DNA from: Entophlyctis helioformis
Lineage: Eukaryota > Chytridiomycota > Chytridiomycetes > Chytridiales > Chytriomycetaceae
Direction: 5' to 3'
Assembly: GCA_025526915.1 (NCBI GenBank)
Contig: JAHLKH010000333.1
Location: 1-19,539 of the forward strand
Length of the DNA stretch: 19,539 nucleotides
Numbering within the stretch: the stretch's first letter is position 1; each line of letters begins with the position of its first letter. The position numbers were made by a program, and so were the translations under genes. The notes beneath the pieces were generated by a model. That model was not told the DNA's origin. It saw nothing but the letters and a program-made list of their open reading frames with translations, and made no database searches. Of this stretch, positions 1 to 15,964 are shown one piece after another.

Positions 1-519
1 GGGACCTTCTCGTCGGCATTGACGAGCTCCTGGCCGTTGAAGATCACACTGGCGGACGATGTGAAGACCAGCTTGCCAACGCCGGCAACAGTGCAAGCAT
101 GGATGACGTTCTTGGTGCCTTCGACATTGACCTTGAAGTACACCTCCGTGGGCAGGCCGTGCGGCGGAGACGCAGTGTGGATAACCACTGTCTTGCCTGT
201 GCACGCCTTCAGAACGTCGTCGGGCTTGGTGATGTCACCAACGACAAACTCGGAGAGACGGGCATCTTCGAATGTCTGGCGCAGGTCGAAGATGGAGACG
301 ACATTGCCTCGAGCCAGCAGCTGGTTGACAATGGCGCGGCCAAGGAAGCCGCCGCCGCCGATAACAAGATAGTGATCGCTTGTGGGCTGTTCAGCAGTCA
401 GCCAGTCCAGCAGTCAGTTAGTCCCAGTGTGTGCGTGCGTGCGTGTGTACGGCCAGCGGAGGCGCAATTCTAACGGACTGCCATTCGTTTTGGTGAGAAA
501 CGTTTAATTGGCCCTTCAT
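1..519 (-). CDS. ERG26: Sterol-4-alpha-carboxylate 3-dehydrogenase, N-terminal part (ERG26/NSDHL type), partial
   Basis: Removes the C4 carboxylate of sterol intermediates with NAD(P)+ during C4 demethylation in ergosterol/cholesterol synthesis, usually at the ER. The exon at 386-1 reads as a Rossmann-fold short-chain dehydrogenase: LVIGGGGFLGRAIV (nucleotide-binding GxxGFLG), then VVSIFDLR, VVGDITKPDDV, VVIHTASPP, VNVEGTKNVIHAC and LVFTSSASV, in the order expected for 3-beta-HSD/NSDHL proteins. That exon has no start codon; its 5' side has a splice acceptor (aacag before 386) with a CTAACTGAC branch site. A 64-nt intron (387-450, GTAC..CAG) would join it in frame to a 23-codon first exon beginning at ATG 519. 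The catalytic YxxxK and the C-terminus lie beyond the left edge. Exon 1 is inferred; family assignment is firm, though a close 3-beta-HSD paralogue is possible. Confidence 0.82.
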
Positions 520-547
520 CTGAGGGGTGGGCAATAGGGCGAGGGAA

Positions 548-565
548 TGCCGGCAGTTGCCGGCA
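548..565. repeat. Twin TGCCGGCA palindromes
   Basis: Two identical 8-bp perfect palindromes, TGCCGGCA, lie at 548-555 and 558-565, separated by GT. They sit roughly 30-45 bp upstream of the proposed ERG26 start. They could be a dimeric binding site in that promoter, or an end signal of the neighbouring element. The function is unknown. Confidence 0.45.
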
Positions 566-743
566 AAATGCCCGACATCCAAACAATTACCAAGAATCAT
601 TGAATTAAATTGGACGCGAGAGGCGTCGAATGTAAGGCAAGCATAACACACGATGGAAGGTTCGAGTCAGCAACCAGCATGGACGACAGCGGGCGAGGCA
701 CATCCAACGAGTGCTTACCTTCGTAAAGTGACCCTATTGGTCG

Positions 744-761
744 ATCGGGAGGTGCCCCGAT
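744..761 (-). other. Perfect 6-bp hairpin immediately after the Fanzor stop codon
   Basis: On the minus strand the stop codon (764-762) is followed directly by ATCGGG, a six-base loop GCACCT, and CCCGAT. In TnpB and Fanzor systems the guide (omega) RNA usually comes from the 3' end of the nuclease gene and the element end, so a stem here is worth noting. A six-pair stem can also occur by chance. Confidence 0.3.
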
Positions 762-3700
762 TCATATTGTGCTGGAAGTCACAGCACGTGGAGTTGCATG
801 TGCCTTGCTGGCTCGTGACCCGCGGACAGACCGTGTCCGTGGTGGAGGCGGCAGGACGATGGGCGGATCGGGTGGTCTTGGAGGCCGCTGGTTGACAGGC
901 AGCTCAGGTACTGGAAGCTGCTGGACGACAGGCTGACTGGCCTTTGTGTGCGTCAAGTAGAGCGGCCGCTCTCCATCGAGCAAATGCCCCAGTGCGACCA
1001 TTCCGATGTTGGTGGCTCCAAGCACGTCTCGGTGGTAGACGGCCTTGCATGCTGTGCACTCGTAGCGTCGCAGGTTGGTGCGGTTCTTGTCTGGGATCCG
1101 TTGCTTGCACTGCGGGCACATCTGGCTGGTGAGGTTCTCGTTGCAGCGGTAGATCTGTGTGTGTGTGTGTGTGTGCATGATCGTGTGGTCAGTTGGTGCA
1201 CAGATGGATGGATGGATGGACAGCGTGGCATCAGACGCACATAGGCATATCCAGACGACCGCAGATGCCTGATGAGAAACTTCTCAAACACTGCATGCCG
1301 GCCACCCTCGCCAGTAAAGTCGATGCCCAATGCCCAGACAACGGGATGTCCTTCTCGGGTTTGGTCGAAGGGCAGGCCTTGAGATGCAGGAGATGCGCGC
1401 TTGCCAGTGGTCGATCCTGCCAGCTTCATGATGCCTTCAAGAGCATGTCCGCGAATAGACATGCTGTTGCTGCGCATGGAAAAACGCTCGGCCTTGACCT
1501 TCTGTGGAATGCCATGCCATGCCACTCAATGCAATCAGCAGGCGATCAAGCAGCATGGCGATCATGCCAATGCATTCAGAAGCAGAGAAAACATACCTTT
1601 GCATTCAGGAATGTCGAGCAGTACGCCAAGCAGCGAAGATCCCAAAAGGCTCTCTCGCCTGCTGAGACGTGGATCGGCATGCTTTGCCATCTTGAAGGCA
1701 ATCGCCTCATGGATGTCGGCTGCCTTGGCATATCGGCCATTGAACCTGGCACAAGAGACAGGCGCTGTGAGTTGATCTGGTCAAGAGTGCACAGAGTCAT
1801 TGCATACATACCATCGCAGAAGTTCGCGCTCAGCTTGAAACATGCCAGAGGAGAGCACATAGTTGGACTCGTGCGTGTATGTGCCGGTATTGACGTTGAG
1901 CAGCATGCTGGACGCGCCAAACAGGTACCGCTGGCCCCAGTCTAGACTGACAACGCGAACAGTCTGGTAGCCCTTTTCGGCGAGCAGCTTGTTGGCATCA
2001 GCAACATCAGGTAGTCGCTGGGATGCATTGAAGTTGCGCTTGGCCTGTCATGCCATGGCATGAGTGAGGGATGTGCAATGCATGTGCACCAATGCGCGAG
2101 GTTAGCATGCAAGTGACATACAAGGTTTGGCACTTTTGGCTTGGCAGCTGTGGATGGCATGTCAGTTGGTGTGGACAGCAAGTACGCGTCTGGATTGGCA
2201 CAGCAACTCACATTCGCCGTTGAGGTAATCAGGCACACAATCAGCCTCATTGGCAAGACTGGGAAGCTCGCATGAAGACGCCGTGTCGGGACCTGCGAAG
2301 CAAGGCGGCGGTTAGAATTGATGTGTGCACCAAAGCATCCAAGCACGGCACATACTGCAAGGCGACTCTGGACGGTCTGTGCGATAATCGCGAACCAACT
2401 GGCCGACGCTGTATCCGTTCGAGATGACGCTACTCATCCGTGTCCGTTTGGTTGGTCTCGCTGGGGGTAGAGCATCAACCGCAGCCTGGATGAAGTCCTG
2501 CGCTCCTTGCCACGCAGACGCTGCTTCTTGGCCGCTCGCGTCGCCTTGGCTCTAGCCGCTTTCTTGGCCTTGGTGTTGGCTGCGTCCATTTCCGCTTCGG
2601 CTTCTGCCGGCGTTTGATACCGGCCTTTCTTGGGGCGGAGGCCGGGAAGCAGGACGTCCATGACGCAATTCTCGCGACTCGAGCTGAATGCCTTCTTGAT
2701 CTCGCTGTCGGTTGACTTGAGTGTCAACTTTTTCGAGCCAGGCTCTTTGAGAAAGGTGGATTGTTAGTATCAAATCATAAAAAGATGGCACAAACAGGCA
2801 GTGCAACTTACTGATCGCAGCAAGTAGCTCCTTTCGCAGTGCTTGCAAAGCAGGATCCTGCCCCTTGCTGTCGCGCTCCTTCTTTGTCCCCATCACAGAC
2901 CAAAAGAGTGTCCTCTCTGTGATGAGAACGAAAGGGTCGCAGCTTGCCGGCTGCGGGCAAAGCTTGATGCTCTGTCTCCCAGCGAGATTGCGCAGCGCAT
3001 GGAACTTGCCGGGATGCGACAGCGACTCACTGAGCACAATCGCAGCGAGCTCGTCTAGCTCTGGAGGTAGCACGACAACGGCCTTGCCCTCTGTGGCTGA
3101 GGAAGAGCTGGATGCTGCGGCCTTCTTGCTGCGTGGCTTCTTTGGTGCGTCCTTGCCCTCCGTGGCTGGCGATGGGCTCGGCGCCGCACTCTCGGTGGTG
3201 GCAGCCTTCCCGACACATGGCTTCTTGGCGTCCTTGGCAGCGGCGGCCTTAGCAACGCGTGGCTTCTTGGCGGCTTTGGCAGCAGCACCGTTGGCAGCCG
3301 TGGCGTCCTTGGCAGTGGTGTCCTTGCCGACGCGTACCCTTGTCGGTGATTGAAGTGCTGGACGCGGTCCGCTTGTGGGTTGGCGCGGGGTCCTTGCCGA
3401 CGCGTACCTTCTTGGCTATGCCGCCCTTGTCGGTGATTGAAGTGCTGGACGCGGTCCGCTTGTGGGTTGGCGCGGGGTCCTTGCCGACGCGTACCTTCTT
3501 GGCTACGCCGCCCTTGTCGGTGATTGAAGTGCTGGACGCGGTCCGCTTGTGGGTTGGCACGGCGTCCTCAGTGGCAGCCTTCCCAACGCGTGGCTTCTTG
3601 GTGGCTATGGCAGCAGCAAGCCTGGCGTCCCTGGTGGCTTTGGCAGCTGCATCCCTGACGGCTTTGGCAGCTGCACGCTCGGCGTCCCTGGCGGCTTTGG

Positions 3701-5267
3701 CAGCTGCACGCTTGGCGTCCCTGACGGCTTTGGCAGCTGCGCGCTTGGCGTCCCTGGCGGCGTTGGCAGCTACACGCTTGGGATCCTTGGCGTCTGCGGC
3801 GTCCTTGGCAGCTTTGGCAGCAGCGCGCTTGGCGGCGTTGGCAGCAGCACGCTTGGCGGTCTCAGCGTCCCTGGCTTTCTTGATCAGGTACGTAGTCCAC
3901 GCCGTCGCTTGCTTGGGAGTTGAACCGCGCACAAGCTTGAGGCACGCTGCAAACACCAGGTCGGACTGGCTTCCAATGTAGTGCTGCGCCAGCATGGCAC
4001 ACACACTCTTGGCGAGGTTGCTGAAGATATCATTCGCAGCTTCCGCGCAGAGGCTGCCGTCAAGCCTGTCTGGTAGAGCCGGCTCCTGCGCGACGGCTGG
4101 CGGCATTTTGGGCTGTGGTATGCCTTTCTTGATCGCATTGGCGTGCACCATGCCTCGCGTCCATGACCGGTGCATCATCAGCTGCATGGCCGTGACGAGC
4201 CACGCGTTGATCGTGCTCATATTGAGACCCGGCTGGGCCATCTGCTTGCCACTGAAAATGTACGACAGGTGGCGCAGCATACAGGCCATGGACGTCTCGC
4301 CGCCAGAAGCGCTGCTGATGATCTCCGTGAGCAGCTGGTTCGCTGTTGGCACCGCCGGTGCTGCTCCTGGCTGCTCAGACTCGTCGGCGTCCTCAGACTC
4401 GTCGGCGTCCTCAGACTCGTCGGCGTCCTCGATGTCCTCAATGTCCTCATACTCGTCGGCGTCCTCGCTGTCCTTTGACTTCTTGACCCTCTCGTGCAGA
4501 CATATCTCGAGTCTCGTGCCCGTGGCGAGTGGCACCGGATCGCCAAAGCGAGGATCGCTGCTCTCTGGGTTGTACAAACTTGAGCCATACATGATCCGCG
4601 CGTTGATGCCCTTTCTGAGCGTAAATCGGCCGGACAGGAAATCCTCCCTTGACACGCCACCGGGGCGGTTGGTGCGTCTGAGTTGCTGGGATCGTCGAGG
4701 GCTCGGATATCATCGTGCTCAAGAAGCAGAACCCGGTCTGCTTTTCTTGGAACCACTGGTAAACGTGGTATTTTGGCGGGAGGGGCGCGTCTTGAACGAT
4801 CTCGAGGAGCTCTTCAAGGACGGCACCAATGACGATAAGGCCGGCCTGCCGAGTACCGACGGTGAACGAGTACACACGGGTAAACTTGTCCTCGACGATC
4901 AGATCCCGCGTCCATGTCTCTGGCGTCTTCCTGCCATGAAGGCCATGGAATCTGACGCGCAATGGATCACTCGAGGTAAGGTCCTGCACACCACGCCAAG
5001 CTGCCAGTCAGTACATGCATCGCCATGCATGCAGGCAGAATGGCGATCCTAAATCGTACCTCGTATAGCACTCTCATGCCACAACGATCAGCCGCGTCCA
5101 CAGCGGGTCGATCGGTCGCGTCCACAGCGGGTAGATTGGTTGCGCCTCCTTTTGATTGCCGCACCTTGTCGCCGATGGCCGCAAGGAGTGTTATGAATCG
5201 CGCGGTAACGATCTGGCTCATCTTTCTGAGCTTCAGCTGTAGTGCCCGTCGTGAGCGAATGACGACT
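762..5267 (-). CDS. Fanzor (eukaryotic TnpB-like) RNA-guided nuclease with long N-terminal extension; frame breaks in the extension
   Basis: Fanzors are OMEGA nucleases with a RuvC fold that cut DNA guided by an RNA. Core exons: 2356-2744, 2292-2212, 2147-2122, 2044-1812, 1745-1597, 1524-1241 and 1154-762, all phase-compatible. RuvC-I is VVSLDWGQRYLF (near 1940), followed by the typical THESNYVLSSG..ERELLRW block. RuvC-II is YRCNENLTSQMCPQCK (1150-1105). RuvC-III is YHRDVLGATNIGM (about 1041-1003). D, E and D are all present, and CPQC/CTAC form the zinc ribbon. The C-tail is proline-rich. Upstream exons are 5267-5060 and 4983-2812. They carry an acidic ESEDAD run, lysine/alanine hendecads and 29-aa repeats, with no fold I recognise. 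Frame breaks lie near 4734, 4663, 3338 and within 2434-2549. A separate gene could start at ATG 5221; otherwise it continues the XPG gene upstream. Confidence 0.78.
1155..1240 (-). other. Fanzor intron whose 3' splice site lies in a (CA)n microsatellite
   Basis: The 86-nt intron between the RuvC-II-proximal exon and the zinc-ribbon exon starts GTGCGT after GCCTAT. It holds a short TGGA tetranucleotide array (plus strand 1204-1220) and ends in an uninterrupted (CA)n run whose last CAG is the acceptor. The splice keeps phase 0 and gives AY-IYRCNENLTS, the expected RuvC-II context. The usual pyrimidine tract is replaced by the dinucleotide repeat. Confidence 0.65.
1156..1177. repeat. (TG)n dinucleotide microsatellite
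   Basis: About eleven TG units on the plus strand, inside the last intron of the Fanzor gene and touching its 3' splice site. A length change should not alter the reading frame, but it could affect splicing. Confidence 0.9.
3321..3570 (-). repeat. 87-bp tandem repeat coding 29-aa units (THKRTASSTSITDKGG..)
   Basis: Exact 87-bp spacing separates the repeated TGTCGGTGAT landmarks at 3341, 3428 and 3515. Each unit encodes THKRTASSTSITDKGG, then V or I, then AKKVRVGKDPAP, a basic serine/threonine-rich motif. Units are nearly identical, which implies recent duplication or homogenisation. The copy that is last in reading order (3321-3350) lacks 17 nt within its GGxAKKV codons, which shifts the frame of everything downstream. 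Confidence 0.85.
3600..3870 (-). repeat. 33-bp tandem repeats coding lysine/alanine/arginine hendecads
   Basis: Degenerate 33-bp units such as GCTTTGGCAGCTGCACGC on the plus strand recur through this stretch. On the minus strand they give 11-residue units of the kind KRAAAKAARDA. Eleven-residue periodicity rich in A, K, R and D fits long amphipathic or coiled-coil helices, as in LEA proteins or H1-like tails. It probably forms a flexible or helical, basic, nucleic-acid-friendly linker. Confidence 0.8.
4378..4431 (-). repeat. Three 18-bp repeats coding an acidic ESEDAD tract
   Basis: Three perfect copies of GACTCGTCGGCGTCCTCA (plus strand) lie in tandem at 4378-4395, 4396-4413 and 4414-4431. 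They encode an acidic Glu/Asp/Ser run in the middle of the composite gene. Acidic tracts like this often act as casein-kinase-II targets or charge-balancing partners of nearby basic regions. Confidence 0.85.
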
Positions 5268-5325
5268 CTACCAAAACACGCATGTCAGCAAGTGCTCTCA
5301 CGGCACATCGCACAGCATACATCAC

Positions 5326-8157
5326 TTACACTCGCGTTGTGCCAGAAGGAAACCTGCGGTGCTGCAGGCCTGACCTTTGCCTGTTGGTCTTCGCGGCCTT
5401 CTTTGCCTCAGTATCTACAGCTTCCGTTTCGCTCTTCTTTTTGAGCTTGGCGAGCATGGCTGGCGTGAGAGGGCGTGGTGCCTGCAGAGGTTGGATGGCA
5501 ACATGAGCAATGCATTCCGAGTGCACAAAATACATATGCAAGCATCAATGGTACATCAGAACTAACCGTCGTCTGGGTGTCTGCAGCTCGATTGAGAGAA
5601 AAGACAACCCGCTGTGCTTGTCCAGGCCAACAGTTGGTAGATGACCATTTACGCTTGGGCGGCGTTGGCGGTTGAAGCCCCTGTCAATTGGAAAAATGAG
5701 CGACTGCACCAAGTCATCACATGCACACACGGCCAGTGTAGACAGAGACGCACCGATGCCTGCTCGATGATCGACTTTAGCAGAGCAATAGCCTCGGCTG
5801 CTGCTCGACAAGTGTCACTGGTTGGCCCTTCGTTTGAGCTTTCAGGTCTTTCAGCTGTTTTATGGCCCTGTCGCGGATTTCGGCAAAGGTCTTTGAGGAA
5901 ACGCGGCGGGTGTTGATCTTGCCTTGATACTTGGGTTTCTGCTTGTTTTTCTGCGTTTCTGGTACTAAAGTAGCACATTCGACAAAGGCAGCACTGTGAG
6001 TGGATGGTGTCAAGTCATTCTGATGCAAGCAGCACGTACTTGGAGTTGATGAATGCTCAAAGGGTACGCATGGAGGATACACGATCTTGTTCAGCTGGTT
6101 CTGCATCACCAAAGCGACAGTCTGTTCGATGGACAGTGGATTGGGTTAGACACTTCAAGGCAAGAAATGCACATGAGTCCAAGTCATGCAGAAACTTACG
6201 GTTGCATGCTGAATGGCCCAAGCTGGTTTGTTGAGCAACGTGCGCGCTTCCCGTACAGGAGGCTTCTTGCAGGCAAGCGCTACAAGTCGCGCGCTTGCCG
6301 CCCGGCTGATCCTCGCCAGAATGTCGCGGCCCGCGACTCCGCCATGATTGCCAGAGAGACGGCCCGCCGCGTGCTTGACAATGCAGTCAAATGCGATCGG
6401 GCAGCCGTTGACCTGCTCAAACGCGGTGTCCATTTGCTCGCTGCTGACAATGGTCTCGAGGTGCCGGTTGATGTCGCTCTGCGTCAGATGCACGACGTTG
6501 GAGTCTGGGTGTCGTTCTTGCCAGTTGGAGTGGGTCAGGAGGCAGCCGTCATGTCGCTGGCAACTGCATCACGATCCAAAAGTTGCATCAAGGACAGGAG
6601 AACAGAGTCAGCAATGCGAGAACCTGCAGAGATCGCATGCATGAGTACCTTGGTTGAGCTGCGGCGGTCTTGACGGCAGCCTTGCCGCTGTCATTCCATG
6701 TGGTGATAGATGGTCAGTACAGTGCTCTGCATGCAAATGCATCAACAGTGCCGCGTGCTTGACCGATCGCGCAATGACTTGCCTCTGCCCTTGCGCATCG
6801 CGAGATTGACCGCTGCTTCTGCTTGGGGCTTTGAACGCCGCAGCGGAAGCTCCTGACTCGTCGAGGTAAACGAAAACGTCAAAGGCGTTGAGAAATGCCT
6901 TGGCGAGGTCCTCGCCTCCGATTGGCAACAAGTCCTTGACGTACGCGTCCCTGAGGCCCGTCAGGAAGTCGTCGGAAAACTTGCGGTTGCGGAGGCGATC
7001 ACGGAAGCCGGCCAGATCCGTGATTCCCTTGCTTATCACGCCATCAACGTACTCGTTAATGAACTTGGCACCAAAACCAATGCCTGCAAGATGATGTGAG
7101 TGGCAACGCATGTTAGTCGGCATCGCAGCATGGATGACAATACAGAGCATGAAGCCAGGAATCGCACGCACCACGCCCGTAGCAATCGAAAAAGTCATTC
7201 TTGGCGAATGCAGCTAGAGTTCGGCAAGAGCCATCGAACTCGTACACTCCCATGGCTGACGCAGTGGACGGGATACCTGCATGGTTATAAGACCGGATCT
7301 CGCTGTCATGTCCCTTGCGCATGCTCATCGTGATGACAGGGCAGCGGCCGTCGCAGTGCATCACCAAGTCCGAGTCGTTGGCGATAACCACCATTGGTGT
7401 GTCGCTGTTGCAAGATGAAGACTGTTAGCCGTCAATCAAAACATACAGTTGCGATGGCGGTCAATACCTTGGATTTCTTGCATACTCGGCTGCGCACCGG
7501 GCGATGCAAACGTCCGCCTCGTGGTCACACCAATGAGCCGTATGCTGTGGCTTGGTCTCGAGGATCTCCGCGATCGCCTCGTAAATACGCTGCTTGTCGT
7601 CGTGCGTGAGCGTGAACGAACGTCGCAGCGCCTGTCTGTCTTTCCTGGATCATTGATGGTTAGTTAGAATCGCCTCGATGTGGCATGAAGAAGTGGACGC
7701 ACCTGGTCAAGTGTTTCGATCTCTTGCACTTGCCGCGTTTGCGAATGCACCGCAGAACAGTGGCCACCCCATTCAGGACCTTAACGGCACGGTGCCTGTG
7801 CTCGATCTTAAGCCCAGAGTCGCCGTGCTGACCGTCAACATGAAAGACGTATGTGTGCTTGTCGCCGAACTTGCCAATGAACGACTCGAGTACTGGCTCG
7901 AGGACTGACTTTCGTTCGGCCATGGATGGTTGTAGATCAGGCCTTCCTTGCCCGATAAAGTACGCAAAGAAGACGCTCATCACATCGACGTGGACAATGC
8001 CGCAAGTGCTGGGTGTGGCCGTGTTGGTGTCGCTCGGATCTCGTGGCAGTTGTGCATTGTCCAACACAAATGTCAACGCCGAAGACCAAGGCACGTCCTT
8101 GTGTATGACGACGGCCTTTGCCTTCCTGGAATGTGCAGACTGGCCGATGATGCCCAT
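5326..8157 (-). CDS. XPG/FEN1-superfamily PIN-domain nuclease (possibly the N-terminal half of a composite XPG-Fanzor protein)
   Basis: A nuclease of the structure-specific 5' flap/XPG family, expected to cut branched or flapped DNA with two metal ions. Exons: 8157-7703, 7644-7468, 7404-7172, 7083-6779, a short one near 6681-6649, 6563-6200, 6121-5754, 5680-5567 and 5481-5330. The protein starts MGIIGQ, as XPG-family proteins start with MGI. N-region metal ligands are D58 (VHVDV) and D108 (FHVDG). The I-region has E194 and D196 (CDHEADVCIA), then D221 and D223 (ANDSDLV). A helix-two-turn-helix follows at about 289 (GIGFGAKFINEYV). The tail has CDK/NLS-like PTPPKRK and many lysines. One frame break lies near 5826-5828. 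A TAA at 5328-5326 would end the gene, but a strong GTAAGT donor overlaps it and splices in frame to the next exon. It does not match FEN1, EXO1 or XPG closely by eye. Confidence 0.78.
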
Positions 8158-8161
8158 GTTG

Positions 8162-8214
8162 TGCGTGTGTGCGTGCGCGGCTGCTGATCGTGCGTGCGCG
8201 GCTGCTGATTGTGC

Positions 8215-8251
<37 letters not shown>

Positions 8252-8290
8252 CGTGTGCGGTTGCTGATCGTGCGTGCGCGGCTGCTGAAA
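8162..8290. repeat. Minisatellite plus (GT)n tract just upstream of the nuclease start codon
   Basis: Four copies of a roughly 21-bp unit, core GTGCGTGCGCGGCTGCTGAT, lie two on each side of a (GT)n run of about 28 bp (8217-8245). The array ends within 5 bp of the ATG at 8157, so it forms the 5' untranslated region or proximal promoter of the minus-strand XPG-like gene. Alternating purine-pyrimidine DNA of this kind can adopt Z-DNA and changes length readily. Confidence 0.8.
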
Positions 8291-9044
8291 GCTCAATCAG
8301 ACAGTTGCAGAGTGTCGCGGAAAGTTCGAAATCGCTTCTCCATTCCTTGAGGCGAGCAGCCCGATGGAACAATGGACAAAGGGCTCCACGCCTCGTCCTC
8401 CATGAGCATGGCCGTGGATGGCAAGCTGGGCTCGGCACAAGGCATTTGTTCCCTTTGGCCGAGCACAATGATTGGATGCCACTGGTCGCCAAATTTAATA
8501 TCATTTCATTGTTCTTGGCCAGTCACTCTGAGCAGCAAACAGATGGCATTGATGCGGATCGTCTCTGCTTTGAGGCTGGCTTACAGCCCATCTTGAAGGG
8601 TATGGCTTGATGGCCACTGGGCAGCATACCAAGGGCCATCCTGCTTGTGGCAGTCTCGACTGGTGACAGCCGGCATTCTTCTGCAGAGACAACCGCGTCA
8701 CAGCAGACCTTGACGTCTTGGTTGATGCTGGAGTGCGATGGCGCGCACAATGGCGCACGCGTCGGTAGAAGCGCCACCCCTCTTGAAACAGGCAGTGATC
8801 TAAGGGTTGGTGGCACCCAGAGCGCCACGCCCATTGTCAAGTTGAAGTGGCTTCTGAGATCATCAACCCAGATCGCCTCGATTCCACGATGCTCATAGGT
8901 TGAATCTGCAACCAAAGGCTTGCTTGATGCTCAACGGGGTTTGGGTGTTGGCATGGCAGCCACAGCACTGGTTGCCCATCCAGCCTTGTTCATAGGGTCC
9001 ATGCCGCAGTTGGAATCACCAAGTGCGCATGGAATTGCTAGATC
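8291..9044. other. Unassigned region, no convincing gene
   Basis: Open frames of about 130 codons occur on both strands (minus 8915-8523; plus 8209-8610, then 8647-8898 in the same frame after one stop), but none contains a motif I recognise. No splice pattern joins them convincingly. It could be a decayed transposon or the upstream regulatory region of the nuclease gene. Confidence 0.5.
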
Positions 9045-9404
9045 TCATCCGTGTGAATTCCTCCAACCTGATGTCCAGCCCTCCTTTGTGCTCTGAGCAG
9101 TACTGAGATGCGCCATATCGCTATCTGGCTCCTTGGAACAGAGATTGCCAACCAACACCATGACAATCCTCCAATCTTTGACCGAGTAGTCATCCCAGAT
9201 CTCACAAATGTGTCGCACTTTCTTGTGATGATGGTGCAAGGCGAGTTTCTCCTTGGGCACAGTGTCTTCATTGCCAACTTTGGATGCTGTTGACTTCAGT
9301 CGCCAGCAGGTCTGAGACGACTTGTTCTTTGCAGCCTGCAGTCGATCAGCCCTTTGTTGTTGACCGAGACTGTGCATGCTGCTCGTCATTGCATTCACGG
9401 GCAT
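9045..9404 (-). CDS. Hypothetical protein, 119 aa, unrecognised
   Basis: An ATG-started frame of 119 codons. The N-terminal half is polar and basic (GQQQRADRLQAAKNKSSQT). Then come a four-histidine run (LALHHHHKKVRH) and a hydrophobic-aromatic segment (CEIWDDYSVKDWRIVMVLVGNL) that looks more protein-like than random sequence. No domain is recognised. It could be an exon or remnant of a transposase, or spurious. It is oriented like the nuclease gene downstream and roughly divergent from the small gene at 9706. Confidence 0.25.
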   Translation of the reverse strand: MPVNAMTSSMHSLGQQQRADRLQAAKNKSSQTCWRLKSTASKVGNEDTVPKEKLALHHHHKKVRHICEIWDDYSVKDWRIVMVLVGNLCSKEPDSDMAHLSTAQSTKEGWTSGWRNSHG

Positions 9405-9705
9405 GCTGACAAGTCAGGTGGGTATGGCTGTTGGCTGTGGATGACGGGGTGCGACGACATCGTGCCTTGAATGCAAGACTTGCTGATTATCTGCGCTGCT
9501 GGCTGTTGCAAAGACACTCGTCACTGCGACCTTGCTGTCTACACAAAGGCAGCCAGGACAGAGGTTGACATGAGTGGGCAGAATTGCTGCAGGCATTCTG
9601 TGTGTATCGCCTCGACAGTTCTCAAAGTCAGACCAATCCAAGCGCGAGGCCTTACAGCAGCTCAACGATACGCGGCAGCTCAATGATACGCCGAGTGATC
9701 CATCC
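9405..9705. other. Intergenic stretch upstream of the D-box ORF
   Basis: No gene or clear signal is seen. The frame of the 9706 gene stays open upstream to about 9574 without an ATG, so a 5' exon or a longer 5' untranslated region is possible. Confidence 0.5.
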
Positions 9706-10158
9706 ATGACCTCGTTGGTGAGCTCGTCTGCCTCTTGTGTGATGGCTGTCAACAGTTGCGACTCTGTTGACACTGTGTGCCTTGACAATCTCGACGACGA
9801 CAAGGACGTTGTGGACGAGCATGGACAGCCAGCCGTTGCTGTAGCTGCCACGCCAACAGCCAGCCGCCGTGGAGCGACAAGCAAGCGGAAGAGAGCAGCA
9901 GCAGCAGATGCCAATGCGTCTGTGTCGGCTGTGACGTCGGTCGTTCGGACATTGCAGCAGGCAGCCTCAGCAGCAGACACAAGTGCGCCGACTGGACGCA
10001 GAAGGCCAACAGCTGCAACAGGCAATGGCAGGACAGTCCTTGGTGACATTACCAACACGCAACCAACTGCTGCCCCTGGGACGGGCTCAGTAGTCCACAA
10101 GCCAGCGTCAAAGCGACTACGACTTGAGAAGGCATCGGCTGCAGACCGCTCAGAGTGA
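9706..10158 (+). CDS. Small nuclear-type protein with a cyclin-like destruction box, 150 aa
   Basis: An unspliced frame of 150 codons, disordered and rich in Ala, Ser, Thr and Asp. It has a nuclear-localisation-like SKRKR near residue 65 and a second basic patch KPASKRLRLEK near the end. Residues 109-117 read RTVLGDITN, a perfect extended destruction box (RxxLxxIxN) of the RxxLGDIxN form known from mitotic cyclins. The anaphase-promoting complex reads this signal for degradation. No cyclin box follows, and none is visible downstream to 10854. It could be a truncated B-type cyclin, a securin-like or other cell-cycle substrate, or a coincidental motif in a hypothetical ORF. The start at ATG 9706 is the first ATG in frame. 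Confidence 0.45.
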   Translation: MTSLVSSSASCVMAVNSCDSVDTVCLDNLDDDKDVVDEHGQPAVAVAATPTASRRGATSKRKRAAAADANASVSAVTSVVRTLQQAASAADTSAPTGRRRPTAATGNGRTVLGDITNTQPTAAPGTGSVVHKPASKRLRLEKASAADRSE

Positions 10159-10854
10159 CTGGGAATCTGGACAAGAATATGAATTTGGATTCAAAAAGAT
10201 TGGAAATTGGATTCAAAAAGTCTGAAAATTGGATGCCAAATTGAACAAAATTCGAGGCAAACCAGCCGACCAATCAGGTGCCAGCGCAAGGTTTTCTATG
10301 GGAACGACAGGGGGTGGTCAAAAATGGAAAAAAGACTACGGATTTCTTTATGAGAATCTCCAGACGAGAGAAGCCCAACGCACTTCTCCAAGTTGCATCC
10401 CCGTCCTTGGTTGCTGAGAAACTGATGGCCCAAGATTGCGTGGGGTCGTCCTCCTTCCTCTTGTTTCGATTTTTCTATGGGGCTTACTTCGAAATTGTTT
10501 CTAGACGTCTACAGGCGTCTGTGTTGCATTCTGAAAAGTGCGCCGTGTAGAGGGAGACGAGAGGAGTCGAATGCACTTGTTTCCAGCCCCATTGGACCAC
10601 ATCTGACCTCACCCGCCGCCATCTTCCTCCACCTCCCAGTTCCCTGAGGACGCTCCGGCAGATCAGCTTGCAATTTCTGCTTCCGCTCGCTTCTCCACAG
10701 ATCGCGACCCCCACAGATCACGAGCAGTTGCTTTGCAGCAGCAGCAGCGTCCCTTGTGAGCTCTTGGTGCATGTGCGGCTGCCTCCGTGTGCACACAGCC
10801 AGCTGACAACTCTCTCTGTGCGGCACCAGGCCATCTCCACATCCTCTGTCGCAA
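10159..10854. other. AT-richer intergenic region, about 700 bp
   Basis: The first 350 bp are visibly richer in A and T than the flanks and hold a 22-bp tandem repeat (listed separately). The last 300 bp regain the local composition and include a CAG trinucleotide run (about 10734-10749). This part probably carries the promoter and 5' untranslated region of the zinc-finger gene. No coding exon is recognised. Confidence 0.5.
10185..10250. repeat. Three tandem 22-bp AT-rich units
   Basis: Units begin TTGGAT at 10185, 10207 and 10229. The first two share TTGGATTCAAAAAG and the third is diverged. They lie 27 bp after the stop codon of the D-box ORF. Confidence 0.75.
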
Positions 10855-11713: not shown

Positions 11714-13988
11714 TCAAATAAGGAACGGCGAGTCGAGAACGGCATATCCCGCGGCAACTCCTCCCTCGTCAGAGTCCGAGGTCTTGGTGCGCAGCAAATG
11801 GCCGGGCGCCTCGTTCAGATGCTCGGTGACTCCATCGCTGCAACCAGTATGCACATATGATCAGCAAACGGATAAAGAAAGGCATCGGGCAATGGTGGTC
11901 CGTTTGTACCTGATGTATGTGCCATAAATGCCCAGCTCGCTGACAACATCCGCAACAACCTGCGCGCCGCGGCGAACAAGATAGTTTTGGAAGGGCGGGG
12001 GCTTGATGACATCCATCAAAATATAGGCCTTGCGCTCTTGCAGCGAGAGCTCCAAGAGCTTTTCGCGGACGTGGTCGCCATAAAAGTTGTTACCTGTCCA
12101 ATGCCCATTTTCAAGTCGGGTCGATGTTGCCAAGTGTCAGTTGCGCCACCAATGCGAGCGGTAGATGGAGCCTGACGCCTCGCCACAAGAACGAACCTCC
12201 GCCCTCGCGTTGTGGCTTCATCACAAAGTCGCCAGGCGACTGCAATGCACGCTCATACGCTGCCAAGCCTTCTGGCGACTCGTCAAGTGGATAGAGACCA
12301 GTAAACGACGATCGGACGAGAGCTGCTTCTGTAGGATCGGCAATAAACCTGCATACGGCATGGATAACCCAAACGGCTTAGCTGGCCAGTGCTTGGGCCT
12401 GCAATTGCCATCATTTGAGCGTGCGCGCTTACTTTTCGAGCACACCCTGGCCAGCAAGCACCTGCTGGACCTTCTTGGTGCCTGCCAATTGGTACGCGAT
12501 TGGAGGGCACTTGATGGCGCACGAGAGCTCAATGGTCTGGCGTCCCGTCCACTCCTTCACGCGCGGCAAGCGCAAGGTCGCATTGCAAGTTGGTAAGTGA
12601 CAGGAGCGTTGTGCACAAGTCTCTCAGTCACAGCCAGACGAAATGACATACCTGTTCGGTAGGGTAGTCGCCAGGACCATATCCTGCACGGTAGTACACA
12701 AGAGCCACCTCGTGGCCACCGCTGCCGAGGCAAAAGCATCAGTCGCGTCGACACAACCAGAACATGCTGTGCACGTATGGTAGGCTGCGTTTCTGCGCGC
12801 TGTCCAGGGACCAAGATATGCTTACATGGCGAGCTTGTGGCTGTCGGCATCAACGTGGGCATCTCTTGCCACTTCGGCAAGAGTGCGGCGGATCAACTTT
12901 GCGCCAAACCTGCAGGTGTGCAAGGTACCACGGTAAGCAGTCAAGACACCGTGTTTGGCTGCATCTGCATAGTTACATTTCAAACAGGCGATACTCGATC
13001 CAGCGCTGATCAAAGATGTTGTGCTCTCCTGCCTGAACAATCATGAGAACAACAGCTCTGCGAACAAAAAGTGGAAATGTAAGCCCATGCCAAGAGGAGA
13101 GAGTCAGTCATCAGGATACCACTGGGATGAGGATAGCCCGTTCGCAGCAAGGGATCATACTTGTCCGATCCATAGAGTTGCCAGGCCTTGCCGAGAGCAG
13201 CAGCAGTGCCATCAAGGGATCCGTTGGCAGGGAGAGCGGACGTGTGGATATCAGGCGTCGAGGAGGACAGATCATTGAAGAAGTTGGTGCGATCGGCAAG
13301 GTGCAGATGCATGGACGTGGTGATGGACGACAGCCCCGAAAAGGCTGATGAAATGGAATTCAGCTCGACCTGCTGGAGCTTGGACTGCGAGTCTGGCGTT
13401 GGCTTGTGCACAAGATAATCGGATCTGTGGATGCCCATCCAGATCTTTTGTGCCGACGGATGCGCCAAGGCCACCTTGTAGATGCCGTACAAGCGCCAAG
13501 TGAAGTCGTCGACGTTGGACAGGCTGGCGGCAGTGGTGATCGCGTGATGGCAATGCGGATCAATGTCGGCACAAGCCACTCACGACGGATAAACGGATCA
13601 CAAAGTCGAGGGCGAGACAAAGAGGAAGCTGGCCGAGGAGCAGAGGGGAGAAAGGAGACGGCAAAGAGAGACTGCATGCACAGGCAGTGGCAGGCAGTGG
13701 CAGGCATGTGCATGTGTACCTGCTCATGACAGATGCCAGAAAGGCATCGTCGCGGGCAATCTTGTCGACGAGGCGGTTGAAGAGAGGCTGCAGATGGAGT
13801 GCCTGCTCGTAGCAGTCCCGCGGGTATGGGCTTGGAAAGAGGGCAAGCGGTGCATGGACGGCGAGAGGGTAGTCTGCGCCTCGGGCACGCATGACAAGCC
13901 CGTGGGCGGTTGCCCAGTCTACAGCCTGCAGTGTGAGCTCCTCGAGCTCACGTTGCGGTGGAGCCGGCGGCCAGCTTTTGAGAACCAT
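11714..13988 (-). CDS. GSH2: Glutathione synthetase, complete, nine exons, 482 aa
   Basis: Joins gamma-glutamylcysteine and glycine with ATP, the second step of glutathione synthesis, in the cytosol. Exons: 13988-13720, 13523-13161, 13057-12977, 12909-12826, 12721-12652, 12554-12433, 12348-12197, 12093-11910 and 11837-11714. All phases agree with no frame errors. Motifs in order: [11 protein letters not shown] and [13 protein letters not shown] near the N-terminus; [24 protein letters not shown]; the substrate-domain [63 protein letters not shown] (ATP-grasp glycine-rich loop); [24 protein letters not shown]; and the C-terminal [24 protein letters not shown]. Length fits eukaryotic GSS (about 475-490 aa). 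The first ATG in frame is 13988. It shares a 140-bp divergent promoter with the SNAPC3 gene. Confidence 0.97.
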
Positions 13989-14128: not shown

Positions 14129-15964
14129 ATGATTTTGGACGAGATCCGACAAAAGTCGCTGCGGCTGCGTCAAGAGGCTCGACAGCTGGCCCACGCAGCA
14201 CAAAACCACGACGGAGATGGGCACGACGAGGGTCGTCTTTCAAGGCAGAGCAGTACGTTTGACGCAGCGAGCACAGCGCCTGCGTTTTGGGCAGGCTCCG
14301 TCGCTGCTACCGCCAACTCCAGTCGCCGGAATCCTCCTGCTGGTGCGGCACTCCAGTCAATCGAGTGAGTGCTGCCTGATGCCGCAGTTGTTCGCTCTTG
14401 AACTCCTCTGGCACCGCATGTCCAGAAGCATGTCCAGAAGCATGTCCAGAAGCATGTCCAGATTACTGACTGCGAGTCGGGCCAGTCCAGAGCAGTATGT
14501 GCGGCTCAAGCGTCTGATCGGTCCTCAAGAGAACGACTACATGGCGTCGTCTCAAGCACGGGCGGATGTCCACTCTGATCGAGGCAGCAATGGTGCACCG
14601 ATCCCAGCACAGGTGTGGCCGGTCCAACGCTCTGCAGCATCTGGACCGCAAACGACAACGACTGCTGCAAGCATTGAACGCGAGTTGCGCTTGCCCTCGC
14701 CCTTGCCGCTGATGGCGACGATCCAATGCAAGGTTGGACAATGTGGAGCACATCCCCCACTGGACACGATCCCTGTACGCCGTGGCTCTTCTCCGCTAAT
14801 CCAACATATTAACTGCAGGTATTCGCCAGGAACTCGTCATTGAAGTATCTTTCCGCAACCCCAAGCGGCCTGGCCGAAAACTCGCATCACTCAAGGTGCT
14901 TGGCAGCCAGACACTGGCCGATGTGCGTGACGCCTTTGTCTGCATGAGCGACATGATTGCAGTGGAGAGCAACGATCAATTGCACGTCCGATCTGCGGCA
15001 ACAAACACAAGCAGATTTACACGCATGCCCGGAGCTGCTGGCACTCGCAGCCGAAGAGCAAGTGGGCAAATGGAATCCGGCAGTTCCCTGGCACTTGCAC
15101 AAAGTGATGCGTTGGAGACATCAGCTGGATCAATGCTGAACACGGGGCGGCAAGAGGCCTACTTTTTTATCGAGAACGTCTTTTATGTTGATGTGCGCAG
15201 CCATGGAGCCATGGACTGTAGCCAGTAAGCTTTGAATCATTCGCGCGTGCTCGTTCGCTTGGTTGGATGGCTGGGGCAGCGCGCCGATACTGAATGGATC
15301 TACGCTGGATCACCACTTTGCACCGGGCTTGGCGCCAGGGTTTTGCGCCAATGGATGCTGGCAAACAAGGAATCGTTTGGCGTCGCCCCGGTCAAGGCGG
15401 TGCTTATGGAGAATGCGAGACTTGACAGCCTGGAGCTAACCCTCGGCCAGTCATATCTATACATGCATCAGGGCAGCTGTGGACATACGTTTGTCTTTGA
15501 CCGTGTCAGGTAGGTATCTTCATGGTCCTGTCTTTGAGTCGGCAATATGGCACCTAGATAGACATGCCCACTCACGCGCTTGTGGCATACGCAACAGTCT
15601 GTTCAATCCCCATCTTGACTCGTCGCAGGCCCAAGAGTATCCTGTTGTTGTCGCCGCCTCGGCCATCGTGCCCCTCAAATGCTCGGTATGTGAGGTGTTT
15701 AATGCCAGGTGAGGATATCCCTTCGACGCAATGTCTGCAGTATGTCGTTGCTAAGCTGGCCGCTGATCGTCTGTCTGTCGGCTTGCCGGTCCGTCCATCA
15801 GTCAAGCCACCTTTGATGACATGCTTACCGCCGAGACACCGACACTCTGGTGCGATGGCTGCTTCGAAGAGTTTCATCTGGGCCTAGAAAACGAGCCAAT
15901 GTACACTGCGTTTCGAGCTGGCATCATCCAGACAGAGTTCTCTGTTGATCCCTCTGTAAAATGA
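14129..15964 (+). CDS. SNAPC3: snRNA-activating protein complex subunit 3 (SNAPC3/SNAP50)
   Basis: A subunit of SNAPc, which binds the proximal sequence element of snRNA gene promoters for RNA polymerase II and III. Well-supported exons: 14819-15224, 15339-15509, 15598-15708 and 15802-15964, all in phase. Diagnostic motifs: SLKVLGSQTLADVRDAFVC; FFIENVFYVDVR; MDCS joined to QVLRQW; then KAVLMEN..LDSLELTLGQSYLYMHQGSCGH; and the C-terminal zinc site built from HQGSCGH, CSVCEVFNA and WCDGCFEEFH. The usual CEH of the family is CGH here. The N-terminal exons are less certain: ATG 14129 to 14364, a 61-nt intron, an exon from 14426 with four SMSR repeats, and further short exons before 14775. Stop TGA is at 15962-15964, 88 bp before the Timeless start. 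Confidence 0.88.
14416..14461 (+). repeat. Four 12-bp tandem repeats (GCATGTCCAGAA)
   Basis: Nearly four perfect copies of a 12-bp unit within the SNAPC3 N-terminal region, coding SMSR repeats if translated. Each copy carries a potential CAG acceptor, so splicing could choose among several in-frame sites. Confidence 0.8.

Follow-up and report, generated by a model that had tools for sequence, protein, structure and literature searches.

A transposon family of Entophlyctis helioformis with linked XPG/FEN1-like and TnpB/Fanzor-like domains in a predicted spliced gene

Organization of the element and its gene

The window, a 19,539-nucleotide stretch of E. helioformis DNA (contig JAHLKH010000333.1), carries on its minus strand one copy of a transposon whose full-length form comprises 19 exons and 18 aligned introns, with a predicted product of about 1,830-2,025 residues. 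Alignment with a near-identical copy, C15, breaks off at positions 520 and 10307, and at 10308 other sequence directly adjoins the element. The product would begin with an XPG/FEN1-like nuclease domain and end with a TnpB/Fanzor-like RuvC domain and zinc ribbon; between them, in N- to C-terminal order, would lie a second domain, the variable linker and a middle region. The parts are encoded as follows:

About 520-10307, minus strand: transposon copy, 9.8 kb (limits of the C15 alignment)
6783-8157, minus strand: XPG/FEN1-like domain with seven invariant acids; exons 8157-7703, 7644-7468, 7404-7172 and 7083-6783
5754-6687, minus strand: second domain (aligned exons, open in C50, C1 and C15); exons 6687-6649, 6563-6200, 6121-6040 and 5964-5754
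5060-5680, minus strand: variable charged linker (exon model and alignment); exons 5680-5567, 5481-5330 and 5267-5060
5268-5329, minus strand: intron 10 (GTAAGT...TAG)
2356-4983, minus strand: middle region with acidic and Ala/Lys repeats, conserved in translated comparisons; exons 4983-2812 and 2744-2356
2122-2292, minus strand: two short exons ahead of RuvC (exon model, aligned introns), 2292-2212 and 2147-2122
762-2044, minus strand: TnpB/Fanzor-like RuvC and C4 zinc ribbon (PF07282, motifs); exons 2044-1812, 1745-1597, 1501-1241 and 1154-762
522-770, minus strand: conserved 3' non-coding end, continuing as far as the tip of the element; candidate scaffold for a guide RNA (omega/reRNA)

The middle region is, from its position, a candidate recognition lobe. 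Splice ends of the GT/GC...AG type were found at 150 of 162 intron-by-copy places, with intron boundaries that had been adjusted once, after inspection of the alignment. Intron 10, predicted in the initial annotation, has GT...AG ends in all nine aligned copies. The acceptor of intron 12 is AA in C50, C298, C53 and C1 under the exon model used, and two residues of the C50 protein may therefore be intronic.

Open frames in the window copy and its relatives

The two nuclease domains had initially been annotated as intact and as parts of one spliced coding block. Compared with C15, the coding exons of the window copy have frame-changing differences near positions 5800 (1 nt missing, in the second domain), 4717, 4675, 3409 (70 nt), 2500 and 1670 (2 nt missing, within the RuvC part), while 8-nt and 1-nt gaps near 1361 and 1346 jointly restore the frame. 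One nucleotide is missing from C15 too, near 1890. The longest open stretch of the spliced window copy is 612 codons, and random-phase splicing reaches 715 (maximum of 500 trials), so that neither the intactness nor the single coding block can be upheld for this copy. Judged by its sequence, it is a broken member of the family, whether through decay or through assembly error.

The single block is found in related copies. C50 and C1, which look like members of the same subfamily, have a spliced frame that runs uninterrupted across both domains (1829 and 1845 codons, predicting proteins of 1829 and 1845 aa); the open frames of C15, C298 and C109 measure 1801, 1859 and 1400 codons, respectively, with the ATG of C298 out of frame with its long frame. 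Each of the frames of C50, C1, C15 and C298 exceeded all 500 random-phase splicings. Altogether, seven of the nine aligned copies, the window copy included, have an interrupted frame or no start codon in frame. The whole C50 protein had no match at 1e-3 in a protein database (7991 sequences scored, candidates being 0.55-1.75 times its length).

Two or more adjacent genes of one transposon, expressed separately, would let the nucleases travel together without forming one protein. The JGI models found, which are short (242-520 aa) and hold XPG-side pieces only (P0003 seems, by eye, to cover the XPG-like domain and part of the second domain), are consistent with such an arrangement, as are the length and variability of the linker and the mid-gene frame breaks in several copies. 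It is nevertheless hard to reconcile with the frames of C50 and C1, unbroken across 18 aligned introns, and with the distant C109 copy, which is open over its 1400 codons and keeps standard ends at 13 of 18 introns; we regard separate genes as very doubtful.

Linkage of the two domains across the genome

At least 118 XPG loci, among them that of the window, were located in the genome. A zinc ribbon lies on the same strand within 8 kb downstream at 52 of the 118 loci listed (about 2.4 expected by uniform chance), and 50 of these 52 ribbons are 5.26-6.85 kb from the XPG-like domain. Among 68 listed XPG loci whose nearest zinc ribbon is within 15 kb, 64 have it downstream in the same orientation, the same-strand order annotated in the window. 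These figures refer to one species, E. helioformis, and to the best 150 of 205 zinc-ribbon candidates; for the locus counts, rows judged to fall in a locus already counted were omitted and the remainder merged within 3 kb. Three zinc-ribbon loci with no listed XPG nearby were inspected: C109 has a collinear XPG-like region (28-36% identity), and in the other two the collinearity extends as far as the contig end or close to it. A proven class of 'XPG-less Fanzors' was rejected on this basis, one of the three loci having the domain and two being cut by the contig end.

The RuvC and zinc-ribbon part

The zinc ribbon PF07282 was recognized at 1005-1157 of the window (42.4 bits; cut-off 26.3) and, also above cut-off, in the C50 protein (9.8e-11); the NCBIfam model guided_TnpB scored 4.2e-7, below its curated cut-off. 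The motifs are VVSLDWGQRY for RuvC-I, an alternative Glu in NENLTSQMC and a last YHRD. Bao and Jurka (2013) gave the Fanzor/TnpB pattern as D-X(125-275)-[TS][TS]XX-C4 zinc finger-X(5-50)-RD, and C50 conforms to it with D1557, T-S at 1746, C1750 to C1773 and RD at 1779-1780. The alternative Glu of the TnpB family is placed six residues ahead of the zinc ribbon in an excerpt of PMC10711439; a scan with the Glu position unconstrained gave 29 matches, every one reading NENLTSQMC, with overlapping loci counted repeatedly. The same excerpt describes DPG in RuvC1 as near exclusive to Fanzors. A scan that would have admitted DPG returned DWG in all 16 matches (overlapping loci again counted repeatedly), and by its RuvC1 motif the family falls outside the Fanzors in the narrow sense. 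Of the annotated Fanzor domain, the zinc ribbon was thus confirmed, but not the Fanzor-typical RuvC1.

With its Glu just ahead of the zinc ribbon and D-W-G in RuvC1, the protein resembles the TnpB-family members with alternative Glu and D-hydrophobic-G described in that excerpt (PMC10711439), from which it differs by its location in a spliced eukaryotic transposon and by the fused XPG-like domain. SpuFz1 of Spizellomyces punctatus, a Fanzor1, is likewise a fungal transposon gene with RuvC and zinc ribbon, but occupies a locus of ~2.1 kb with just one ORF, compared with 9.8 kb, 19 exons and a predicted product of about 1,830-2,025 residues here, and has DPG instead of DWG and, as far as the sections consulted describe it, no XPG-like domain (PMC10432273). 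In PDB searches with the RuvC part the sole TnpB-like chain was AI-designed (E 0.25 and 0.6), among chance matches, and pattern scans of viral (27 and 109 stretches matched) and prokaryotic (22) contigs yielded no confirmed relatives.

The XPG/FEN1-like domain

The start annotated for this domain, the ATG at 8157 on the minus strand, was borne out, and the acids named with it (D58, D108, E194, D196, D221 and D223) occupy exactly these positions in C15, together with a seventh, D281. Seven conserved acids have established roles in FEN1-type nucleases. In the transposon sequences they read D D E D D D D, invariant in six of six aligned, as against D D E E D D D in the host FEN1; the order is that of FEN1/EXO1/XPG (Rad2) enzymes and the spacing is similar (50, 87, 2, 25, 2 and 58 in C50; 53, 69, 2, 19, 2 and 52 in host FEN1), although longer between acids 2-3, 4-5 and 6-7, and the domain belongs to a transposon protein. 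An M-G-[IV] start is present in four of the six aligned sequences.

Profile searches of the spliced product, as initially proposed, placed the zinc ribbon of C50 above cut-off and every XPG profile below it: the best was XPG_I_2 (E 0.0087, 16 bits; curated cut-off 24.2), which matched four of six members at E values up to 10, and the match list of XPG_I (PF00867) contained none of the transposon XPG loci. The XPG piece had no matches when its sequence was searched against the PDB, a PDB search with the XPG profile gave four, none of them a nuclease of the XPG kind, and PHROGs and NCBIfam gave nothing useful for the XPG set. An hhalign comparison of nine transposon XPG sequences with host FEN1, EXO1 and RAD2 scored 14.4, which lies inside the spread of 30 shuffled controls (maximum 21.5). 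Two fold models, for which P0006 was excluded from the alignments as a chimera, were of low confidence (pLDDT 41 and 44); the first recovered XRN1, EXO1 and poxvirus OPG089 nucleases in Foldseek at non-significant E values (0.18-0.80), and for the second no XPG-like chain was among the best 50 of 157 matches. Membership of the XPG family appears weaker than the initial annotation stated: the invariant acids and their order are its basis, and profile and fold matches are sub-threshold or null. An N-terminal domain of another PIN-like or unrelated kind, FEN1-like in its acids by convergence, would have to reproduce seven invariant residues in the FEN1 order at similar spacing and, past the last Asp of C50, a DY...RGI...AV stretch as in host FEN1 (by eye); the nuclease names among the non-significant Foldseek matches of the first model also point away from convergence, which we consider distinctly improbable.

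For XPG exons 2-4, dN/dS was 0.19-0.41 in 10 of 10 pairs, ratios that are rough because dS was at least 0.95, near saturation, in nine of them; the only unsaturated pair, C50-C298, gave 0.31. Exon 6 gave values of 0.26-0.79; those of RuvC exons 18-19, 0.43-1.03, are distorted by a frame break in C49 and by the tail. Selection on the XPG part is suggested by these ratios. They also bear on the idea of a dead gene family, spread by the machinery of another element, in which the fused frame would be a passive relic: the window copy is frameshifted, most aligned copies are interrupted or lack a start, and at the DNA level introns are conserved as much as exons. The two fully open copies, the XPG ratios below 0.42 in every pair and the 95-99% identity of most copies to the window across the XPG region and upstream all speak against a relic, the least probable of the readings weighed here.

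Element ends and mobility

The window element ends at its 3' side (gene sense) with ...CCCACCCCTC at about 522, and most other copies read have a 5' tip, GAGGGG...TAATTGATT, that is absent from the window copy. The family ends are imperfect terminal repeats starting GAGGGG, with target duplications of ~9 bp (each end was matched at 40 scored places, out of 201 and 83 candidates). Flank repeats of at least 7 bp were present in 7 of 10 copies, compared with 1 of 90 mismatched pairs; 11 copies had been taken, of which C1 was left out because its 3' tip was unlike the pattern. In C82 and C112 the repeats are set apart from the element ends, and the flanks of C98, C89 and C15 share just 4, 5 and 6 bp, respectively. 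By these shared ends and duplications, which substantiate the transposon setting proposed for the locus, the elements are a DNA transposon family of E. helioformis, window locus included. A Helitron assignment based on the 5' TC end was rejected because most other copies read continue past it to GAGGGG.

Target duplications of 9 bp would fit the MuDR/MULE superfamily. The MULE transposase PF10551 had no candidates in a six-frame search of the genome made without intron handling, and in a Pfam search of the whole C50 protein the zinc ribbon alone exceeded its cut-off, with no transposase recognized in the element. Terminal repeats and duplications in an element with no recognized transposase would suit an XPG-like domain working in transposition itself, by flap removal or by cutting excision or insertion intermediates, with the Fanzor-like part as an accessory. 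FEN/XPG enzymes are hydrolases, however, and we know of none that joins DNA. The Spu-1 Fanzor elements of S. punctatus are likewise described, in the text consulted, as having no transposase between their ends (PMC10432273), and we think a role in transposition unlikely.

The 3' non-coding end has a mean column identity of 86% over 20 copies (20 of 27 distinct sequences were aligned). Its consensus fold has an energy of -47.1 kcal/mol, with a compensatory change at 1 of 51 pairs, and Rfam had no match within the window. A conserved 3' non-coding end by the terminal repeat is also the site of the SpuFz1 guide RNA, and neither element has a recognized transposase, as far as the SpuFz1 sections consulted go (PMC10432273). 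The scaffold of a candidate guide RNA probably comes from the 3' tip of the element and its guide segment from the flanking DNA.

Proposed function

What the sequence shows directly is the element, the linkage of the two domains, a fused frame in intact copies and the catalytic-residue pattern; from these we infer a single translated protein with both activities, RNA guidance and a repair role. Taken as a whole, a transposon-encoded XPG-Fanzor-like fusion with guided cutting and a function in repair is the explanation that we favour, tentatively and with slightly less than an even chance of being right. In the proposed action, the RuvC part, guided by RNA, would break a site that has lost the element or an allele that lacks it, and the tethered flap/5' nuclease would trim 5' ends or flaps at the break. 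Such trimming would bias repair towards using the sister or homologue that still carries the element as template, by which the element would be restored. Precedents are a homing model put forward for TnpB (PMC12477157) and an EXO1-based Cas9 editor that is reported to have increased HDR (PMC11107001). As initially claimed, we found no description of an XPG-Fanzor fusion in the literature searched; what Fanzors do for their eukaryotic hosts or elements is given as unknown in PMC10432273. A tethered flap nuclease would point to repair of the cut as that role and would open the homing idea to a test with mutants of either active site.

A more specific version, which is possible but which we hold to be less likely than the general one and on balance doubtful, is a self-contained homing machine in one polypeptide. 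The Fanzor-like cutter, with its unusual RuvC1, would be joined to a FEN1/XPG nuclease that processes ends and steers repair to recopy the transposon. Editing tools geared to template-directed repair could also take the fusion as a natural model. The evolved logic of such a machine would be that of the engineered Cas9-EXO1 'exonuclease editor' (PMC11107001), which likewise pairs an RNA-guided cutter with a FEN/EXO1-type nuclease; that editor is man-made, whereas the E. helioformis arrangement is natural and has a TnpB-family cutter.

Linkage of the XPG and zinc-ribbon domains across the genome

Searches covered the 29.6 Mb Entophlyctis helioformis genome (482 contigs, the window being C333), and three merged searches yielded at least 118 XPG loci, to which the linkage counts refer as listed. 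For 52 of the 118 listed XPG loci, the nearest zinc ribbon lay on the same strand and at most 8 kb downstream, where uniform chance would give approximately 2.4; in a further 12 it lay 8-15 kb downstream. The remainder had it on the opposite strand at most 8 kb upstream (1), 8-15 kb upstream (3) or more than 15 kb away (13), or were on contigs with no listed zinc ribbon (37). Conversely, an XPG locus in the same orientation lay no more than 8 kb upstream of 51 of 150 listed zinc ribbons and 8-15 kb upstream of 12; 5 had one within 15 kb in another arrangement, 26 had one more than 15 kb away, and 56 were on contigs with no listed XPG locus. Three zinc-ribbon loci lacking a nearby listed XPG were inspected: C109 (copies are named after their contigs) contained a collinear XPG with 28-36% identity, and C153 and C164 were collinear with the element up to or near the contig end.

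The XPG relatives in the protein database were Entophlyctis helioformis entries. One of these JGI models, P0006, joins an XPG-like start to another stretch, through insertion or as a gene-model chimera; the second stretch, judged by motif, presumably resembles a Copia retrotransposon. At L111 (1904-3161, minus strand), a fragment of the element's RuvC/zinc-ribbon gene adjoins host FEN1 exons. The TnpB/Fanzor zinc ribbon was scored at no fewer than 150 places (205 candidates) in 29.6 Mb, all above the curated cut-off, a very large family load for this genome.

Gene structure and reading frame

Introns occupied the same 18 positions across copies (alignment of six, later nine copies), with GT/GC...AG splice ends at 150 of 162 places (nine copies, 18 introns), the boundaries being defined on the window copy with one adjustment made after the alignment was viewed. 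The distant C109 copy had such ends at 13 of 18 introns. After splicing, the frame was open for 1829, 1845, 1801 and 1400 codons in C50, C1, C15 and C109, respectively; 1859 codons were open in C298, but its ATG sits in a different frame. C49, C13b, C53 and the window copy had interrupted frames, the last with frame-changing differences from C15 near 5800, 4717, 4675, 3409, 2500 and 1670. When splicing was repeated with random phases (500 trials per copy), the true open length exceeded the random-phase value in 500/500 trials for C50, C1, C15 and C298; the window copy showed no excess (612 codons versus up to 715 in 500 trials). Very probably, the XPG and RuvC parts are carried in one protein. 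Intron lengths suggest that C50, C1, C53 and C298 belong to a single subfamily.

C-terminal domain and proposed mechanism

The C-terminal domain matched PF07282 above cut-off and NCBIfam guided_TnpB at 4.2e-7, under its curated cut-off, and contained a C4 ribbon as well as the alternative Glu. According to PMC10711439, DPG is near exclusive to Fanzors, and alternative-Glu proteins with D-hydrophobic-G are assigned to a separate clade. RuvC1 was DWG in all matches scanned; the predicted fused protein thus carries the alternative Glu and fits the Bao-Jurka motif, and lacks the Fanzor DPG mark. dN/dS in RuvC exons 18-19 was 0.43-1.03, in a comparison that includes the C49 frame break and a variable tail.

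In one model described for TnpB (PMC12477157), an emptied or element-free site is cut and then repaired from an element-bearing copy; an EXO1-based Cas9 editor favours repair from a template in mammalian cells (PMC11107001). Here, the RNA-guided part would cut the emptied or element-free site, repair would copy from the element-bearing copy, and the tethered 5' flap/end nuclease would, by analogy with that editor's nuclease, promote this route. The XPG part is probably a working nuclease; that it steers repair is a tentative proposal.

Element limits and other features of the window

Comparison with the near-identical C15 copy set the element limits at 520-10307. The window further contained:

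3-413, minus strand: piece of a gene of the 3-beta-hydroxysteroid dehydrogenase family (PF01073, 6.9e-30), adjoining the element 3' end
9574-10158, plus strand: open frame of 194 aa inside the element, opposite in strand to the fused gene
11861-13579, minus strand: glutathione synthase pieces (PF03917)
14800-15513, plus strand: SNAPC3 subunit pieces (PF12251)

Pfam gave no hit for the 194-aa frame at E values of 0.1 or less; this frame may represent either a second gene or noise.

Searches with the two element ends gave 40 scored matches each, out of 201 and 83 candidates. By eye, most copies read started with GAGGGG or a longer G run followed by TAATTGATTTCGTTCCC and terminated in ...TTGCCCACCCCTC, the two ends forming an imperfect inverted pair. 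Repeats of 9 bp directly adjoined both ends in C144, C121 and C264, and at least 7 bp were common across the ends in 7 of 10 copies, versus 1 of 90 mismatched pairs, in the flank comparison. The window copy is without the 5' tip; from 10308 onward, CAGGGGGTGGTCAAAAATGG stands in its place, which by resemblance we take to be possibly another transposon's end.

Conserved 3' end and apparent mosaicism between copies

Across 20 sequences, the last approximately 250 bases were conserved, with columns averaging 86% identity, and foldable, with compensatory change in just 1 of 51 pairs; by eye, a hairpin varied in length and kept its self-complementarity in several versions. In Spizellomyces punctatus Fanzor1 (SpuFz1), the guide RNA occupies the corresponding place at the 3' end (PMC10432273); on sequence grounds, the element 3' end is a candidate guide-RNA source.

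DNA identity by block was compared in four cross-family pairs. Identity was 0.47-0.80 for blocks 8151 to 2719 and 0.69-0.96 for blocks from 2243 on (RuvC and 3' end), introns included. The RuvC part and RNA end seem to have been exchanged or homogenised among copies as one block. In the comparison of the window from 522 to ~2300 with C15, C50, C49 and C13b, 3' blocks were closer than 5' blocks, as block exchange or gene conversion would produce. Element introns were conserved about equally to, or above, adjoining exons in the cross-family pairs.
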